Origin: Candidatus Nitrososphaera evergladensis SR1
GTDB lineage: Archaea > Thermoproteota > Nitrososphaeria > Nitrososphaerales > Nitrososphaeraceae
Length of the DNA: 64,000 bases
Direction of reading: 5' to 3'
NCBI RefSeq assembly: GCF_000730285.1
Contig: NZ_CP007174.1
Span: 1,302,001-1,366,000, forward strand
The position numbers were made by a program, and so were the translations under genes. Shown piece after piece: positions 6,241 through 60,277 of the stretch (position 1 is the stretch's first letter; each line of letters begins with the position of its first letter). Under the pieces are notes generated by a model. That model searched no databases. It was not told the DNA's origin and was given only the letters and a program-made list of their open reading frames with translations.

Positions 6241-6581
6241 CTACCACCGCCTTCTGCTGTCTTCATGCGCTTGTCGTACGCCTCTATTATGCGCGTCAGC
6301 GCGTCGTCCTCTTCCTTTACTGCTGCAAGAAACTCTTCGTAATAGCCCCATTTTTTCACACGCTCGACCGTCTTTGCATAGTCACTGTTGTGCTCCTTTT
6401 CCATTGCGGCAACCTCTTTTGCAAGTGCGGGGTTGCCTGCCGACCTTATCAGCACCTGCTGGATTAGAAGGCGGTTGTACCTGCTTGAAGCAAAGTACCT
6501 GCGGTAGAGGTTCATCCTGTCTTCCCTGCTGTTGCCTGCCCTTTTGAGCTCCTCAAGCCGCAGCTGAAATGCTGTTATCAT
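6237..6581 (-). CDS. Conserved-looking helical protein, function unknown
   Basis: The 114 residues are predicted to be almost entirely helical and highly charged, with many Arg/Tyr (MNLYRRYFASSRYNRL) and Glu/Lys segments. There is no signal peptide and no known catalytic motif. A TATA-like TTTTTATT on the minus strand near 6608-6615 sits about 28 bp before the start. Codon composition matches the neighbouring genes, so it is taken as real. Confidence 0.6.
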   Translation of the reverse strand: MITAFQLRLEELKRAGNSREDRMNLYRRYFASSRYNRLLIQQVLIRSAGNPALAKEVAAMEKEHNSDYAKTVERVKKWGYYEEFLAAVKEEDDALTRIIEAYDKRMKTAEGGGS

Positions 6582-6629
6582 GACATGATGAAAGCATTGC
6601 CCTGTTGAATAAAAACACTATTTTTTCTT

Positions 6630-6869
6630 TCAACGCATCGGGATATAGTCGTCTCGCTCGGCTGCAAAGACCTGCTTTACCTCGGAGTATCCGCGTTCTT
6701 GCACAAACGTCCAGGTCTTGCCGCACACGACGCACGTTATGCGCTTTTCCTTTGCCGAGTATTCCAGCTCGTGGTGGCTGCAGCGCACCTGGTACTGCCG
6801 CTTGTACGCTTCCATTTCGCGCAGCGTGTCGATGTGCCTGGTCGAGTTTTCAGCCACGCCTGCAGGCAC
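6630..6869 (-). CDS. Small zinc-binding protein (79 aa)
   Basis: The 79 residues include CSHHELEY followed by CVVCGKTW, giving a possible C-x-H-H/CxxC zinc ribbon. A helical N-terminus (HIDTLREMEAYKRQ) precedes it. No family is recognised. It is the third very small zinc-ribbon candidate within 1.2 kb, between an unknown helical gene and the FlgD-like membrane protein. Confidence 0.55.
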   Translation of the reverse strand: MPAGVAENSTRHIDTLREMEAYKRQYQVRCSHHELEYSAKEKRITCVVCGKTWTFVQERGYSEVKQVFAAERDDYIPMR

Positions 6870-6887
6870 GCCTGCGCAAAATATAAT

Positions 6888-8126
6888 CTACACGGACTTT
6901 ATCTTGCCCCTGTAGCTCAGGTTTATCGAGTCGACGCCGGCAAGCTCTTTGGCCTTGGCAATGATGCCTGATATCCATTCGTCGTCAGACTCTATAGAGT
7001 TGGAAATGACGACGCCCATGTACCTGCTTGAACCTTGTTCGCCGGGGCCCATGTAATCCTCGACTGTCGCCTGGGGGTACTTTTGCTTGATGTCGTCGAT
7101 GACAGGCGCGGCGTCTGGAGGCAGGTACAGCACCAGCCTTTTCTTCCTTTTACTGATGAGAAACGCCGCTGCACCTGCCGCTGCTGCGGCTATTGGCAAG
7201 ACTACTATGGGCAACGATTCCATAAAGGGGATTTTTTCAAGGTCCTGCCTGCCGGGAAAGACTGACGAGCCTGCCACTTCGTCGCCGGCAACTACTATCT
7301 TGCCGTCTCCTCCGCTCGGCGCATTTCTTGTCCCTTGGTCGTTCCTTGCAGTGATATAGTAGGTGTACGTGCCTGACGGCGCGGCCTTGCCCTGCGAGTC
7401 TGTGCCGGTCCACTTTATCTGGTTCTCCCCTGCCGCCATTGCGCCTGCGAGGGTCGCCACCGTGCCGCCTGCCGCGTTCTCTATGTCGACCTTGTACGTG
7501 CCTGCCGAAGACGAGTGAAACTCTATTGCAACCGAGTCGTCCCTGTCCGAACGGAACGTCTTTTGCCCTGCTTCAAGAATAGTAAGCTGCGGCGGAGTTG
7601 GGGGCAGTATTGCCCCGGACAAAAGGGCGCGGTCGCGGATGCCGACTGATTCTTTTACGGCAACCACGCTTGGGCCCCTTGCCTTCTCTGTCACCAAGAT
7701 TTGCTCAGAGATGGACCTGGATAATTTATGGACCGCCGGCACGAGGTTCTTGCGTATGGAATCCTTGATTGTCACTTTTGTGGCAATCGACCTGTGGGTA
7801 GGCTTTTCCACGCTCTTGGCAGTCGCATCCTTGATTGTTGTTTTGTCTGTGATGCTCTTTTTCATGGATAATTCCTTGGACGCCGCATCCGTGATGGCCA
7901 GGGTTTCAGATAGAGCGACGGTGAATTTTTTGTTGTTGCCGCTGCCAGGCTGCTGTGCATGTGCAGTCTGCAATAGCAGTGCCCATGAAAGGAGGATTGC
8001 AATTGCAAGTGCAGCCTTTGCTGCTAACGGCGATGATGGTGGTGGTAGTGGTATCGTCATCGGGCTCCCCGGTTCCCAGAGGAATTTCTCAATCCACTGG
8101 ATAAAAGTCTCGTGAAACCCCGGCAT
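6888..8126 (-). CDS. Membrane protein with FlgD-like Ig domain and degenerate N-terminal repeats
   Basis: The 412 residues begin with a hydrophobic signal/anchor helix (about 35-57, ending ALLLQTAHAQ). A region of short degenerate repeats follows (LAITDAASKEL, TTIKDATAKSV, VTIKDSIRKNL, VGIRDRAL). Next comes an Ig-like domain close to FlgD_ig (AGTYKVDIEN, IKWTGTDSQGKAAPSGTYTYYITA). A second membrane helix follows (about 305-330), then a cytosolic C-terminal domain of about 80 residues. The Ig domain should face outside and the C-terminal domain inside, an arrangement suited to sensing or anchoring. The role is unknown. The start at 8126 lies about 24 bp after a minus-strand TATA-like box. Confidence 0.7.
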   Translation of the reverse strand: MPGFHETFIQWIEKFLWEPGSPMTIPLPPPSSPLAAKAALAIAILLSWALLLQTAHAQQPGSGNNKKFTVALSETLAITDAASKELSMKKSITDKTTIKDATAKSVEKPTHRSIATKVTIKDSIRKNLVPAVHKLSRSISEQILVTEKARGPSVVAVKESVGIRDRALLSGAILPPTPPQLTILEAGQKTFRSDRDDSVAIEFHSSSAGTYKVDIENAAGGTVATLAGAMAAGENQIKWTGTDSQGKAAPSGTYTYYITARNDQGTRNAPSGGDGKIVVAGDEVAGSSVFPGRQDLEKIPFMESLPIVVLPIAAAAAGAAAFLISKRKKRLVLYLPPDAAPVIDDIKQKYPQATVEDYMGPGEQGSSRYMGVVISNSIESDDEWISGIIAKAKELAGVDSINLSYRGKIKSV

Positions 8127-23967: not shown

Positions 23968-25608
23968 TCATGGACCTTTTGGACCCTTGACATCAGTTGT
24001 TGGATTGTTTTCTGCCTTGCCTGTAGTGGTGGGAGCAGCAGCTGCTGCTTTGGTTCCTGGTGCTGTCTGTGTTGTTTGTCCGCCAGTTGCGGTCTTTTGC
24101 GGCGGAAGCTGCGCTGGTTTTTCTGCAGGTTTAGCCGCCGGTTGCGCGGCTGGAGGTGCGGCAAGCGGCTTTTCCTGCGGAGTTGGCGTTGCAGGCGACG
24201 GCCTTGGCGGTGCTACCGCTGGCTTGGGTGCCGGCGGAGTCGGCCTTGGCGGTGGCGCCTTTGCCTGCGCCTTGCCATACCTGTAGAGGTGGAACATGCC
24301 TGCAAAGACCAGCATCATGATGCCTACTATGAATAGCGAGTAGTTCTTCATGCCGTCAAGCATTGCATAGTATGCCGCGATGTTGAGGTACACCTGGAAG
24401 CCGATGAGGACCACGAACAGGGCGTACAGCCACTTTTGCGAAAGCTCTATCGAAGACTTGCCCGCCTTCTTTGGCTGCGCCTTGGCGTTGGCCTCTGCGT
24501 GCTTGGCAAGCTTTATCATCATGTACGTAAAGCCAAACGACAGCGGGACTAGCACTACCATGACCAGGTAGAAGAATATCGGGTCGATGACGAGCCTCTC
24601 AAGAAGCGCCTTGTGCGTGTCCGGGTCGATGTAGAATCCCCAGTATGTGGTGACCAGTATCTGGGCAAGGCTCGTGATGCCTACCGCGGTGATAATCGGT
24701 CTGTCCTTCCAAGAGAACTTTTTGTACCTGTCTACAAACGGTATGAGTAATAGTGCGCCTATGAACAAGCCCGGCCACGCGACGCCTGTGACGAACTTGT
24801 CGTACATCGTCCTGAGGAACGCGTACAGGCCTGTGAGGTACCACTCTGGCACGGTGATGCCCGGAGGCACGTGAGGGTCGAACGGGAGCCCAAGGCCCAC
24901 CGGAAACACTCCTCCCGTGAGCATGATTGCGCCTGCGATGGCCATGACCATTGGCACGTCAAACACCAGAAACCTTGGGAAGTGGACTACCATGAGGCCA
25001 AGCAGCGCGATTGGCAGCATGAACACGTGGAAGGTGTAAAAGCGCAGGATAAAGTCGTGGAACCCTGCGCCAAAGAACGCTTCGCGCATCTGCGGCCCCA
25101 TGATGGGTATCGAGTTGGTAAGCGACGCCGCGATAGAGATTGCCAGCTCCGCGCGCTCTGAGAATATGATGTCATAGCCCGTGAATGCCTCCAGAATGGT
25201 GAGCACGCCCAGTATGATGCCTGTCACCCACAGGATCTCGTTTCTGATCTTGTACCTGCCGCTAAAGTACTGGTAGTACATGTGGAGCAGGGCGAGCATG
25301 ACCATGCCGTTTGAGGCGTGGTAGTGTATGTTGCGAATGTGGAAGCCGTAGGGGATGGTGTCGTTAATGTTCTTGACGCTGTTCCACGCCCTGTCGAGGA
25401 TTGGCTCGTACCAGAGCATGAGGAGCGCGCCGGTGATGCCGAGAATGATGAATACCACGAACGTCAGCATTCCGAGAAAGCCCAGCGGGCTGACGAACCT
25501 TCCCGGGAACGTGAACTTCATTCCCATGAATATAGTTCGCTCTACGCCGGCGTACACCCACCGGAAGAATCTTGTCAGACTGTTCTCATACGTTAAGGAA
25601 GCGCCCAT
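23968..25608 (-). CDS. Cytochrome b (bc1/b6f type) with long Pro/Ala-rich tail
   Basis: The membrane subunit of a complex III-like quinol oxidase. The N-terminal four-helix b6-like part carries the haem-ligand histidine pairs in the helix with HASNGMVMLALLHMYY and the helix with ILRFYTFHVFMLPIALLGLMVVH. A second set of helices continues the subunit IV part. Two extra helices follow (about 405-460). About 85 residues rich in Pro, Ala, Lys and Thr then end the protein, an unusual extension for cytochrome b. The start is the fourth codon of the open frame (MGASLTYENS). It overlaps the Rieske gene end by 23 bp. Confidence 0.92.
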   Translation of the reverse strand: MGASLTYENSLTRFFRWVYAGVERTIFMGMKFTFPGRFVSPLGFLGMLTFVVFIILGITGALLMLWYEPILDRAWNSVKNINDTIPYGFHIRNIHYHASNGMVMLALLHMYYQYFSGRYKIRNEILWVTGIILGVLTILEAFTGYDIIFSERAELAISIAASLTNSIPIMGPQMREAFFGAGFHDFILRFYTFHVFMLPIALLGLMVVHFPRFLVFDVPMVMAIAGAIMLTGGVFPVGLGLPFDPHVPPGITVPEWYLTGLYAFLRTMYDKFVTGVAWPGLFIGALLLIPFVDRYKKFSWKDRPIITAVGITSLAQILVTTYWGFYIDPDTHKALLERLVIDPIFFYLVMVVLVPLSFGFTYMMIKLAKHAEANAKAQPKKAGKSSIELSQKWLYALFVVLIGFQVYLNIAAYYAMLDGMKNYSLFIVGIMMLVFAGMFHLYRYGKAQAKAPPPRPTPPAPKPAVAPPRPSPATPTPQEKPLAAPPAAQPAAKPAEKPAQLPPQKTATGGQTTQTAPGTKAAAAAPTTTGKAENNPTTDVKGPKGP

Positions 25609-26200
25609 AACCAACAATCCCGTTTTTATCTGGACTCCATGTCGGAGGCAGTATCCATACCTTGCCGTCCTTGTCGACCTCTACGTCAAGCCTTGGGAGC
25701 ACGTTTGAGGGCGGACCCTGGAGTGAAGCCGGCCCTGCAAATGCCTTGCCTGTCATCGGATCGTACATGCTGCCGTGACAGGGACACTCTCCCCTCTTGC
25801 GACCGGTATCTGGAAAATATTTCCAGAGGCACCAGAGGTGGAGGCATACCATGCTGTAAACGCGAAAAGCAGAAGCGTCGTTCTTTGCGCCGCCCAGTTC
25901 TTCCGGCAGCCTGATGAACTGCCAGGTGCGGAAGGCCTCCTTGTTGAGGACTTCGTCCTTGGTCTTGGGATAGATTATTGCCTCAGAGTGGTTAACTGGA
26001 AAATCTTTAACGTTGGCCTGCTCTCCGCTTGGAAGCTCCACAGGCTGTCTTTCGCTCAGGTTCCCTGTAGGGTTTGGAAGGAACTTGCCCCAATCTACAA
26101 ACGGCGTAAATGTCATGACGGTGCCAGCGGCTGCCATGAGTTTCAAAAAGTCACGCCTCGACACCTTACCTCCTATCGGTGGTGGAGGAGTCTGCGCCAT
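25586..26200 (-). CDS. Rieske [2Fe-2S] iron-sulfur protein
   Basis: This subunit passes electrons from quinol to the copper carrier. It has a twin-arginine-type anchor (KVSRRDFLKLMAAAGTVMTFTPF) and the two cluster-binding boxes VCLHLWCLW and CPCHGSMYDP, with paired Cys/His ligands. GPASLQGPPSNVLP is the Pro loop. The frame is open to 26248, but a TATA-like TTTATTAATAAA at 26219-26230 sits inside that stretch and points to ATG 26200 as a leaderless start. It is transcribed before cytochrome b, with overlapping ends. Confidence 0.93.
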   Translation of the reverse strand: MAQTPPPPIGGKVSRRDFLKLMAAAGTVMTFTPFVDWGKFLPNPTGNLSERQPVELPSGEQANVKDFPVNHSEAIIYPKTKDEVLNKEAFRTWQFIRLPEELGGAKNDASAFRVYSMVCLHLWCLWKYFPDTGRKRGECPCHGSMYDPMTGKAFAGPASLQGPPSNVLPRLDVEVDKDGKVWILPPTWSPDKNGIVGYGRFLNV

Positions 26201-26248
26201 ATACAAAAACTTGGTTTCGGTTTTATTAATAAACCTTTGTCCTAACAA

Positions 26249-34278: not shown

Positions 34279-36029
34279 CTATCCTATTTGCAGCCTTCTA
34301 AAGAATACGTCAGCATGATCTGTATGCCAATCAGTCTCCCATACCAAATAGATTTCAGAGTTATTGTTGTCCTTCTCGACTATTATTCCGCGGGGTCCCT
34401 CTGACACTCCTCCAGAATCTCCGCTAATTTTGAATGGTCCTGCAGCTGATTCATCTCCTGTATTTTTGTGCCATGAAAGTACGTCTGCGTCCGGAAATCT
34501 AGGCTTTTGTTCATCTTCTGGATGTGCAATATGCTTGGCTTTCAAAGCATATAGTCCTCTATCCGAGGGAAGCAATAGGATGTAGGTTGCGAAGGAAGAA
34601 ATTAGTCCTATATTCTTGCTATCCTCAAGTTTTGTCTGTTCATCAAAACTAATGCCTCCGTTACTGCTAGATCTAACAAAAACAGAACCGCTGTCACTTT
34701 CTTCGAACAGTTGGTGTATCTGCCGGGCGTCTTTTAGTGTTCCTTTTTTCATCATATCAAACAAGCCTTCCGCCAGGTTGTCCATGTTGACATATGCTAG
34801 ATGCATGCTGTTGCCGTCGGCGAGACCGCAAATGAAGAATGCGATCTGATTGGGCCGTTGACGCCAACATGGATGGGATCGCTAAATGTTCTTCCTGCAT
34901 CTATGCTTTTCACGAAAATCAGTGGCACATGGGGAGATGAAAATGGAGTCAGAAGTAACATCTTCTCTTCATCGCCATGACTCACTACCTCTAATAGAAG
35001 GTATAGAGAATCGTGCTGTTTAGCGGCTACTTTGGCTCTTGCGGAAATTATCTTGCTGCCTATGCCAGATACAGTTTTGCTCAGACCGGTTCTTTCCTGA
35101 AAAGTCTGGCCCTTGTCTGTGCTTGCAAAGATGCGGACTCTGGCATTGTCTGGATCTCTTCCTAAAGGGTTGACAATAACATATACATTCTCACCAATGG
35201 CGTGCAGCTCGGTTGGCGAAATTACGTACGGACCACCCTGACCGTCAATACTGGTGTCTAGAAGGCTGATTTTCTTTCCAAATGTCCTTCCACCATCGTT
35301 ACTTGCCCTGAGAAATACTCTGATTGAAAATCTGTATTTTGGGGCTCTTTCAAGGCTCTTTCTCATTTTTTCTTCCATGTATTTGGCAGCTTTGTCAATC
35401 TCACCTTCGCCAAAAGAAATACTCGTTGAGGTTTCTTCATCTTGTGGTTCCAGACGCGCTATTTCCAATATTTTTTTCCTTGTGGTCGATTCGACCCACA
35501 TTACATAGACGTTATTGTCATTTCCGGCAGCAATGTACGGAGTTACTGTATCGTACGTTTCAGAAGGCCGGCTGGGGCCAAAGTTCCTCAAATCATTACT
35601 GCCCTCGCTGCTACAAACTCCCGTCATTTCGTCGCTAACTATAATCGGTTCTTCAAATCTGTCACTGCTCTCTGAATTTCTTGTAAAGTAAACATCAAGT
35701 TTTTTCGGAGAGCTTTTGTCAACCCATGCCAAAAAGACCCTGTTTTCGTTCAAGGGTGAAAATGCTACCTGAGGGGGAAAGCTTCTGGGTTCCTTAAAGT
35801 CATGTAAAGTTATGACACCGCCAAAAGTCCTGCCATTATCTTTGCTTATCCTGTAGACAATGCTGGCGCTATTTTTCTGTCCTTTGATGTGTTCTACATT
35901 GCCATATATTCCCCTGGTCTTTTGCCATATTACATAGAGTGAGTTGCTCTTGTAGGAGAACGCCACAAAAGGCGATGTGGCGTAAAAGCTGCTATCATTG
36001 CTGATGCCGATAATTTCGCCAAAGTCCAA
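34279..36029 (-). pseudogene. BNR/Asp-box repeat (sialidase-like) protein gene, frameshifted and 5'-truncated
   Basis: Two minus-strand frames (36029-34797 and 34806-34279) overlap by 10 bp and together encode one beta-propeller protein. Asp-box repeats are seen as SKDNGRTFGG, SNDGGRTFGK, STDKGQTFQE and SIDAGRTFSD. The first frame reads FAVSP then stops soon after, whereas the adjacent frame reads ADGNSMHLAYVN. A single missing base near 34820 would rejoin them. The upstream end also lacks a signal peptide: the TTG start directly follows a stop, 46 bp from sdhB. Base composition is more AT-rich than the flanking sdh genes. It could be a decayed exported protein gene, or a sequencing error. 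Confidence 0.7.
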
Positions 36030-58870: not shown

Positions 58871-59038
58871 CCGCCAACTATTATAGTTTGTCTGTCCAGA
58901 AATTATACTATTCTATAGAATATTATGTAAAATTTCTACTATATAGTACAGGTTTTAGTGCTTCTACAATTGCAGAAATAGCACTTGATAGCTGAGATGT
59001 AGATGTTTATTATGTCAACCAGCTTAAAGAACATATAG

Positions 59039-60121
59039 TTGCAAAAACCGCCGCAAGCCTGTGTTTTGTTCATCGCAACTGGCGTTTTGTTGCTATCTTT
59101 TGCATATACTTTGGAAAATAATGCGTACGCCCACAACATATCACCCGGTGTAAGGAGCCTGCCTGTAAGAATAGACAACGAGCAGTTCTCAAGCAACAGG
59201 GCAAACACTGATGGCGGCTTTATCGCTGTGACAGGCACTCTTACAAGCCTCGCCACTGAGCGGATAAAAGTGTCTCCGTACATCTTTGTAACTCCCTCGG
59301 AATGGGTTGGTGCAAACGGCGTACGCCACGGGACTCTTCCGTATTACGACCTCCTTGCCTTTATCTATCCACCTTACCGCGACCAGTCGAACTGGTACTT
59401 TCGGGTAGAGCTGAACAACCTGCCAAGCTCGATAGTGCTTGAGCCCGGAGAAAAGGTAGATTATGAAATCCAGATATATCCACTCAAGGCAGGCGCGTAT
59501 CACGTTCACTCCTTCTTTCTGTCCGAGAATTTTGCACGTTCTGGTCTTGGCCAGACAATACTGGTGACAGGCTCTAGTGCGCCAACAACTGGCGAAATCA
59601 CGCAACTGTACCTGCCGCTTGTTCTGGGGCTGACATCCTTTGTCATCCTGATTATCCGGATAATGCAAATCTCAAGAGAGAATGCGCATCTGGCTAGAGA
59701 AAGGATAGCCAGAGTGTATTTTGCGGCCAAGTCGTCGCTTGAAACCATGTGGCTTGCCGGCGTACTGTTCTGGCTTGCAACGGCTGCGCCTTACTTTCCT
59801 GCGATTGAATCAAGGTATGCTTTTGCATTGTCCGCATCTGCGGTACTGGCAGCCATTGTCATTGGAGGGTATGTCTCTGCAGCTGCAAAACAAAATGCCC
59901 GTCATCTGGCGTTTGCTATCATGACATCTGCCGTCAGCGCGGCATTTTGCTTTGCGCTGCTGTTTGGCGAAGGCTGGTTGTATCCTTACTACAAAGAGCT
60001 GCATTTCCTCGTGGATGGTTCTGCATTATTTCTTGCCATGATCGCAAACTCTATCATCGCGATTTATTTCGCGGTTATGGCGCGCAAAGAGGGAAAGAAC
60101 AAGCTGACAAGTGTAGCGTAA
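59039..60121 (+). CDS. AmoB/PmoB-like copper-site domain fused to membrane helices
   Basis: The 360-residue product has a signal helix (about 7-30) with likely cleavage after AYA (residue 31), leaving His32 as the new N-terminus. A beta-rich extracellular domain follows, with VEPGEKVD-like LEPGEKVDYEIQIYPLKAGAYHVHSFFL and then GLGQTILVTGS. His32, His155 and His157 reproduce the N-terminal His plus HxH ligands of the PmoB copper site. The HVH...GLGxGQTxxVxG-like stretch resembles archaeal AmoB. Unlike AmoB, about five further helices follow (about 192-348). The start is TTG about 26 bp after GTTTATTATG. It stands apart from any amoA/amoC. Similarity is judged by eye. Confidence 0.7.
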   Translation: MQKPPQACVLFIATGVLLLSFAYTLENNAYAHNISPGVRSLPVRIDNEQFSSNRANTDGGFIAVTGTLTSLATERIKVSPYIFVTPSEWVGANGVRHGTLPYYDLLAFIYPPYRDQSNWYFRVELNNLPSSIVLEPGEKVDYEIQIYPLKAGAYHVHSFFLSENFARSGLGQTILVTGSSAPTTGEITQLYLPLVLGLTSFVILIIRIMQISRENAHLARERIARVYFAAKSSLETMWLAGVLFWLATAAPYFPAIESRYAFALSASAVLAAIVIGGYVSAAAKQNARHLAFAIMTSAVSAAFCFALLFGEGWLYPYYKELHFLVDGSALFLAMIANSIIAIYFAVMARKEGKNKLTSVA

Positions 60122-60176: not shown

Positions 60177-60277
60177 GGGCTCGTAGCTCAGCATGGATAG
60201 AGCGCCTGCCTTCTAAACACACATCCTCTGTTTCTGAAGACAGCCGGAAGTCGTGGGATCGAAGCCCACCGGGCCCG
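60177..60277 (+). tRNA. tRNA-Arg (TCT) with one intron
   Basis: Acceptor GGGCTCG pairs with CGGGCCC (one G-U), discriminator G at 60277. The D arm is GCTC/GAGC and the T arm GTGGG-ATCGAAG-CCCAC. The anticodon loop CTTCTAA has anticodon TCT, and a 26-nt intron (60216-60241) follows position 37. The mature length is 75 nt. The anticodon stem CCTGC/GCCGG has one T-C mismatch at 29-41. A strong TATA (TTTTATAAAG, 60144-60153) lies about 26 bp upstream, and T-rich sequence follows. Confidence 0.85.

Follow-up and report, generated by a model that had tools for sequence, protein, structure and literature searches.

A diverged AmoB paralogue with an intact CuB ligand pattern and a predicted five-helix membrane part in Candidatus Nitrososphaera evergladensis

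The locus and its predicted features

We analysed a window of 64,000 nucleotides from the closed 2.954 Mb genome of the ammonia-oxidising soil archaeon Candidatus Nitrososphaera evergladensis SR1, in which an open reading frame on the forward strand (59039–60121) encodes a protein of 360 amino acids from a TTG start, as read from the window sequence. Upstream lie the divergently transcribed PHA synthase genes phaE and phaC. Downstream is a gene for an uncharacterised membrane protein on the other strand, with a tRNA gene in between (60177–60277, +; Rfam RF00005, 41.8 bits) that ARAGORN missed and that by eye appears to be Arg-TCT with an intron after the anticodon. None of the neighbours adjoining the reading frame is a copper gene. 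Its parts are as follows.

59002–59012 (+): TATA-like promoter candidate, gatgtttatta, 27–37 bases upstream of the gene; identical in the related genome G132
59039–60121 (+): AmoB-like paralogue, 360 aa, TTG start; Ka/Ks 0.24 against the G132 copy
59039–59131 (+): signal peptide, residues 1–31, with predicted cleavage after AYA; the 4o65 chain begins at the equivalent His
59132–59134 (+): His32, expected mature N terminus and first putative copper ligand; aligned to the N-terminal His of AmoB and kept in 21 of 24 paralogues
59132–59587 (+): AmoB/PmoB-type cupredoxin domain, residues 32–183; PDB profile matches to 4o65 (1.5e-14) and PmoB (1e-6), Foldseek TM 0.64
59501–59509 (+): His155-Val-His157, second and third putative copper ligands; aligned to PmoB HVH, with the full triad in 17 of 23 paralogues
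59543–59557 (+): GLGQT motif (GPGQT in AmoB), from the sequence
59588–59689 (+): membrane helix 1, predicted counterpart of the single C-terminal helix of AmoB; AF2 helix 184–217 and hydropathy
59696–60088 (+): orphan four-helix membrane extension, residues 220–350; low-confidence AF2 helices, no Pfam match, clear matches in three genomes only

The signal-type helix ends ENNAYA, with Ala at −1 and −3, immediately before His32. The codons of the HxH pair fall at 59501–59503 (His155) and 59507–59509 (His157). The original prediction had picked out the AYA–His32 junction, His155-Val-His157 within AGAYHVHSFFL and the stretch GLGQTILVTGS, all of which are present in the sequence at these positions, and its estimate of about five further helices agrees with the five predicted by AF2 (184–217, 220–249, 255–283, 287–309 and 320–350). 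Strands are predicted from residue 43 to 177. Blocks of the beta core have pLDDT values above 90, an inserted loop about 57–73 and helices two to five a mean of about 57; the N-terminal segment is also modelled with low confidence.

The gene is under constraint. Relative to the copy in G132 (74% identity), which has a premature in-frame TAA at the signal peptide where the window has TAC, Ka/Ks comes to 0.24 over the full gene, the domain (0.16) scoring lower than the membrane part (0.30); the comparison genes, canonical amoB and phaC, gave 0.11 and 0.07. The figures for the whole gene and for the domain indicate that the reading frame is a real, constrained protein-coding gene. G132 has the same TTG start and TATA-like stretch, the latter in an upstream region that is itself conserved. 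Upstream of the gene the published copper-limitation promoter motif is absent, and the window as a whole has three matches against 2.6 expected by chance.

Relationship to AmoB and PmoB

Homology to AmoB becomes clear at the level of profiles. Pfam, NCBIfam and single-sequence PDB searches gave marginal AmoB matches: PF04744 against the window protein alone scored 16.2 bits (E 0.0066), under its curated cut-off of 22.7, and phmmer against the PDB gave 0.61. PF04744 does match 12 of 17 paralogues, the best at 2.8e-6. An HMM built from six archaeal AmoB sequences gave the window protein 46.5 bits, with no matches among 2000 shuffles of the domain, and profile–profile comparison of nine paralogues with the six AmoB sequences returned 99.8% probability (E 1.7e-27). 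A further profile, made from 17 paralogue domains and no AmoB rows, was run against every PDB chain; it recovered 4o65, a crystallised archaeal AmoB (1.5e-14), and PmoB chains (about 1e-6), after which the next match was at 0.03. The structural model made from the same AmoB-free set of 17 also has 4o65 as its best fold match (Foldseek TM 0.64 on both lengths), followed by AMO and pMMO chains at TM 0.54–0.62, with generic beta-sandwich matches such as RbmA and PapD-like surface beta-domains below 0.5 by query-normalised TM. The profile match and the fold match to the PmoB cupredoxin domain, both proposed earlier as tests, were each found.

We conclude that the window protein is almost certainly a diverged paralogue of archaeal AmoB. 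It has features of the AmoB/PmoB superfamily, namely profile similarity, the N-terminal cupredoxin fold and the positions of the CuB ligands. With archaeal AmoB it shares the signal peptide, the N-terminal His, the RI(D/E)(N/D)ExFS, YHVH and GPGQT motifs, the same beta domain and a first membrane helix after that domain. It differs from archaeal AmoB in being 20–30% identical with most AmoB-specific invariant residues lost, in having a region inserted between strands and four extra helices, and in its separate locus and sparse distribution. Bacterial PmoB and AmoB (PF04744) likewise have the N-terminal cupredoxin domain with aligned CuB ligands His33, His137 and His139, whereas the window protein lacks their second, C-terminal cupredoxin domain, has another membrane part and on its own falls below the Pfam cut-off.

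Nine canonical AmoB sequences share 71 invariant positions. The window protein keeps 22 of these, among them the three histidines as well as G152 and Y154; the other 49 are changed, and HGVQAQLQSRF, NAGNRWE and, at the C terminus, FATRPWQVI are among the stretches lost. Judging from their conservation, the lost residues would be contacts inside AMO. The membrane part of canonical AmoB, a single C-terminal helix, is absent as such, five helices being predicted in the window protein. Besides the window gene, PF04744 matches one gene in the genome, canonical amoB at C1:922603. It lies about 439 kb away, in keeping with the earlier remark that the gene sits away from the amo genes. Altogether, profile, structure and tree bear out the initial reading: the protein is related to AmoB, its copper-site pattern is intact and its membrane part is different.

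The four-helix extension (residues 220–350) has no match in Pfam. Across 300 genomes of the class, clear matches were confined to its own genome, G132 and G072, a fourth at E 0.005 being doubtful. With no Pfam match, matches in three genomes and AF2 confidence near 57, we claim no fold for this part. The one-helix form, common to AmoB and other paralogues, is probably ancestral, the four helices having been added later.

A predicted copper site

In the paralogue profile, His32 falls on the first residue of 4o65 and HVH on the HVH of PmoB, whose CuB ligands are His33, His137 and His139 (PMC6572826). Among 24 paralogue rows the triad is complete in 17; a further row is a fragment that includes the N-terminal His, and the other six are without one or more ligands. 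The original prediction had set store by homologues keeping His32 and the HxH; with the fragment row left out, 17 of 23 with an intact ligand region do so and six lack some or all of the ligands. In three paralogues the N-terminal His is gone, and in each of them at least the first His of the HxH is missing as well. Two paralogues of genome G064 that lie near each other (L098, 2958–3947 and 6968–7891) keep the N-terminal His, have YKLS and YRIS in place of the HxH, and carry other C-terminal parts. Joint loss and joint keeping of ligands is the pattern that a metal site would give; we put no probability on it, given that some rows are near-duplicates.

The window protein probably binds copper. 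The signal peptide would be cleaved, making His32 the mature N terminus, and one Cu(II) would be bound outside the membrane by His32 (through its amine and ring), His155 and His157.

Distribution and phylogeny of the paralogues

The gene is rare. Within the Nitrososphaeraceae it is carried by four of 70 genomes (N. evergladensis itself, G072, G132 and G109) and is absent from 66. The homologue in G072 (Centralia_MAG_167) is full-length, with 389 aa, 41% identity, intact ligands and five helices or more. The G109 copy is frameshifted, reads YHVR and is a one-helix remnant. In the Nitrosopumilaceae, about ten of 250 genomes contain paralogues that are shorter, with one helix, or diverged in other ways; several copies occur in some of these genomes, G073 having three and G424 more. 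The paralogues were detected only in ammonia-oxidising archaea: sampled Thermoproteota beyond the ammonia-oxidiser order have none, and viral contigs and phage records yielded no relatives. Canonical AmoB is listed for almost all carriers, a statement that leaves G424 and G362 aside.

The unrooted tree of AmoB and its paralogues, in which several branches are long, places the window protein outside the canonical AmoB group across a 99/99 branch. That branch parts canonical AmoB, together with a paralogue group nearer to it, from the other paralogues. The four Nitrososphaeraceae members are split from canonical AmoB at 99/99, and they may group with one row of the Nitrosopumilaceae that sits on a long branch. 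The AmoB-nearer paralogues (L099, L100, L101 and L105, from G048, G081 and G424) start HDIQ, HDVQ or HDIM, have the triad intact and end YFW(R/K)(K/Q)RK, not FATRPWQVI.

Genomic context

The neighbourhood is shared with G132 only, with PHA synthase genes on one side and an acyl-CoA synthetase-like gene further off. In G132, a possibly recombinase-like gene without a Pfam match above threshold (L073, 8936–10042) reads out of the same tRNA end and may mark an integrated element.

In Nitrosopumilus G073, three AmoB-like paralogues (L079, L080 and L081) lie in three long same-strand clusters whose products are secreted or membrane proteins, mostly without a Pfam match, one having a serpin domain. 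Two genes from the L080 paralogue is a Rieske-like gene (6566–7663, OX638319), its product 42% identical to the Rieske protein of the window (25586–26248); the cluster-ligand motif CPCH has become DPCW, the ligands apparently having been lost. Secreted propeller-like proteins of the BNR/Asp-box (sialidase-like) type are found near many paralogues (L074, L075, L079, L080, L101 and others), and one is encoded in the window at 34800–36029. We claim no link between the propeller genes and the paralogues.

Discussion

The original prediction offered three functions, a copper chaperone, an assembly factor or a diverged oxygenase subunit. The last of these is disfavoured by the 49 changed residues of 71, the lack of AMO synteny and the broken gene in a near relative; a chaperone, an assembly factor or an importer may each be compatible with our results. 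The main role may be copper trafficking and not catalysis or surface structure, at about even odds. Our best guess, held with about even confidence, is an extracytoplasmic copper-binding or trafficking protein whose mode of action would resemble that of the CopC/CopD fusions found in ammonia-oxidising archaea. These fusions, which in N. viennensis rise strongly under copper limitation (PMC7785015), share with the window protein the proposed arrangement, in which several membrane helices follow a copper-binding extracytoplasmic domain with an N-terminal His. They differ in that the window domain is of AmoB type and its helices lack a Pfam CopD match; neither the full protein nor its C-terminal part alone gave a CopC or CopD match in Pfam. 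PmoD-type copper proteins of methane- and ammonia-oxidising bacteria are similar by description, as accessory, membrane-anchored extracytoplasmic copper proteins of CuMMO organisms, but the window protein is an AmoB domain with five helices. In this proposal the protein would capture or buffer copper in the pseudo-periplasm and pass it on, either to cuproenzymes or inward by way of its own membrane part; the helices that tether the domain may hand copper on or only anchor it. Counting against this proposal, the genome has CopD-family proteins elsewhere, including large fusion-sized ORFs. The missing copper-limitation motif, the lack of adjoining copper genes, the rarity and broken copies of the gene, the six paralogues with an incomplete triad and the low-confidence model of the N-terminal segment also speak against it. 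A vital role is disfavoured because the gene is rare and broken in relatives.

Other explanations start from the same domain. That it serves as a cell-surface structural or interaction protein, reusing the AmoB beta-sandwich with metal binding incidental or stabilising, is somewhat unlikely. It would accommodate the short Nitrosopumilus paralogues in same-strand clusters of secreted orphans, near the serpin gene and the Rieske-like protein that appears to lack its ligands, as well as the six paralogues that lost ligands and the weaker fold matches to RbmA and PapD-like surface beta-domains. The window gene, however, is single and outside such clusters, and its polytopic C-terminal helices and full triad kept under purifying selection fit a surface protein poorly. 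It is very improbable that the protein is an alternative or accessory AMO subunit, replacing or joining AmoB as has been thought of extra AmoC copies. AmoB homology with an intact CuB pattern speaks for such a subunit, as does the fact that carriers are ammonia oxidisers that also have canonical AmoB. With canonical amoB elsewhere in the genome and 49 of 71 AmoB-invariant residues changed, that role is unlikely; NAGNRWE and FATRPWQVI are among the losses, there are five helices rather than one and no amo synteny, and the gene is broken in two ammonia oxidisers. Moreover, the AMO complexome study gives amoB as single-copy (PMC10030591).

The remaining alternatives concern catalysis and decay. 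Rarity, the premature stop in G132 and the frameshift with YHVR in G109 mark the gene as dispensable, and these same observations would be expected if it were decaying, without present function and intact in the window by chance. We consider this quite improbable given the Ka/Ks of 0.24 (0.16 in the domain) measured against the stop-bearing G132 copy, the full-length, ligand-intact homologue with 41% identity in G072 and the conserved upstream region. Histidine-brace enzymes use an N-terminal His, and the His32 and HxH ligands could in principle form a reactive mononuclear copper site in a redox enzyme whose helices hold a partner. This is highly improbable: we noticed no further cofactor motif in the ORF, and there is no operon partner. 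The same ligand set, CuB, was once proposed as the pMMO active site but on its own has been reported insufficient for methane oxidation (PMC6572826).

New here are the paralogue family, the loss of AmoB residues with the CuB triad kept, the lineage-specific helices and the decay in relatives; we found no description of AmoB paralogues in the literature searched, subscription journals and supplements lying outside its scope. A more speculative and rather doubtful idea is that the CuB domain of AMO gave rise to stand-alone copper proteins and in Nitrososphaera was fused to a new four-helix module, as a novel type of copper importer or sensor. Copper can limit these archaea, and the route by which it reaches AMO is not established. 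AmoB-based surveys may also catch the paralogues, the HDIQ group being close enough to pass for AmoB. The role of CuB in AMO and pMMO is unsettled, and verrucomicrobial PmoB is without the CuB ligands (PMC6572826). Here, natural proteins keep the triad and lose most AmoB-specific residues. Their sequences suggest that the CuB site has a use of its own, for example in holding or passing copper, and the paralogues provide small proteins in which the site can be tested.
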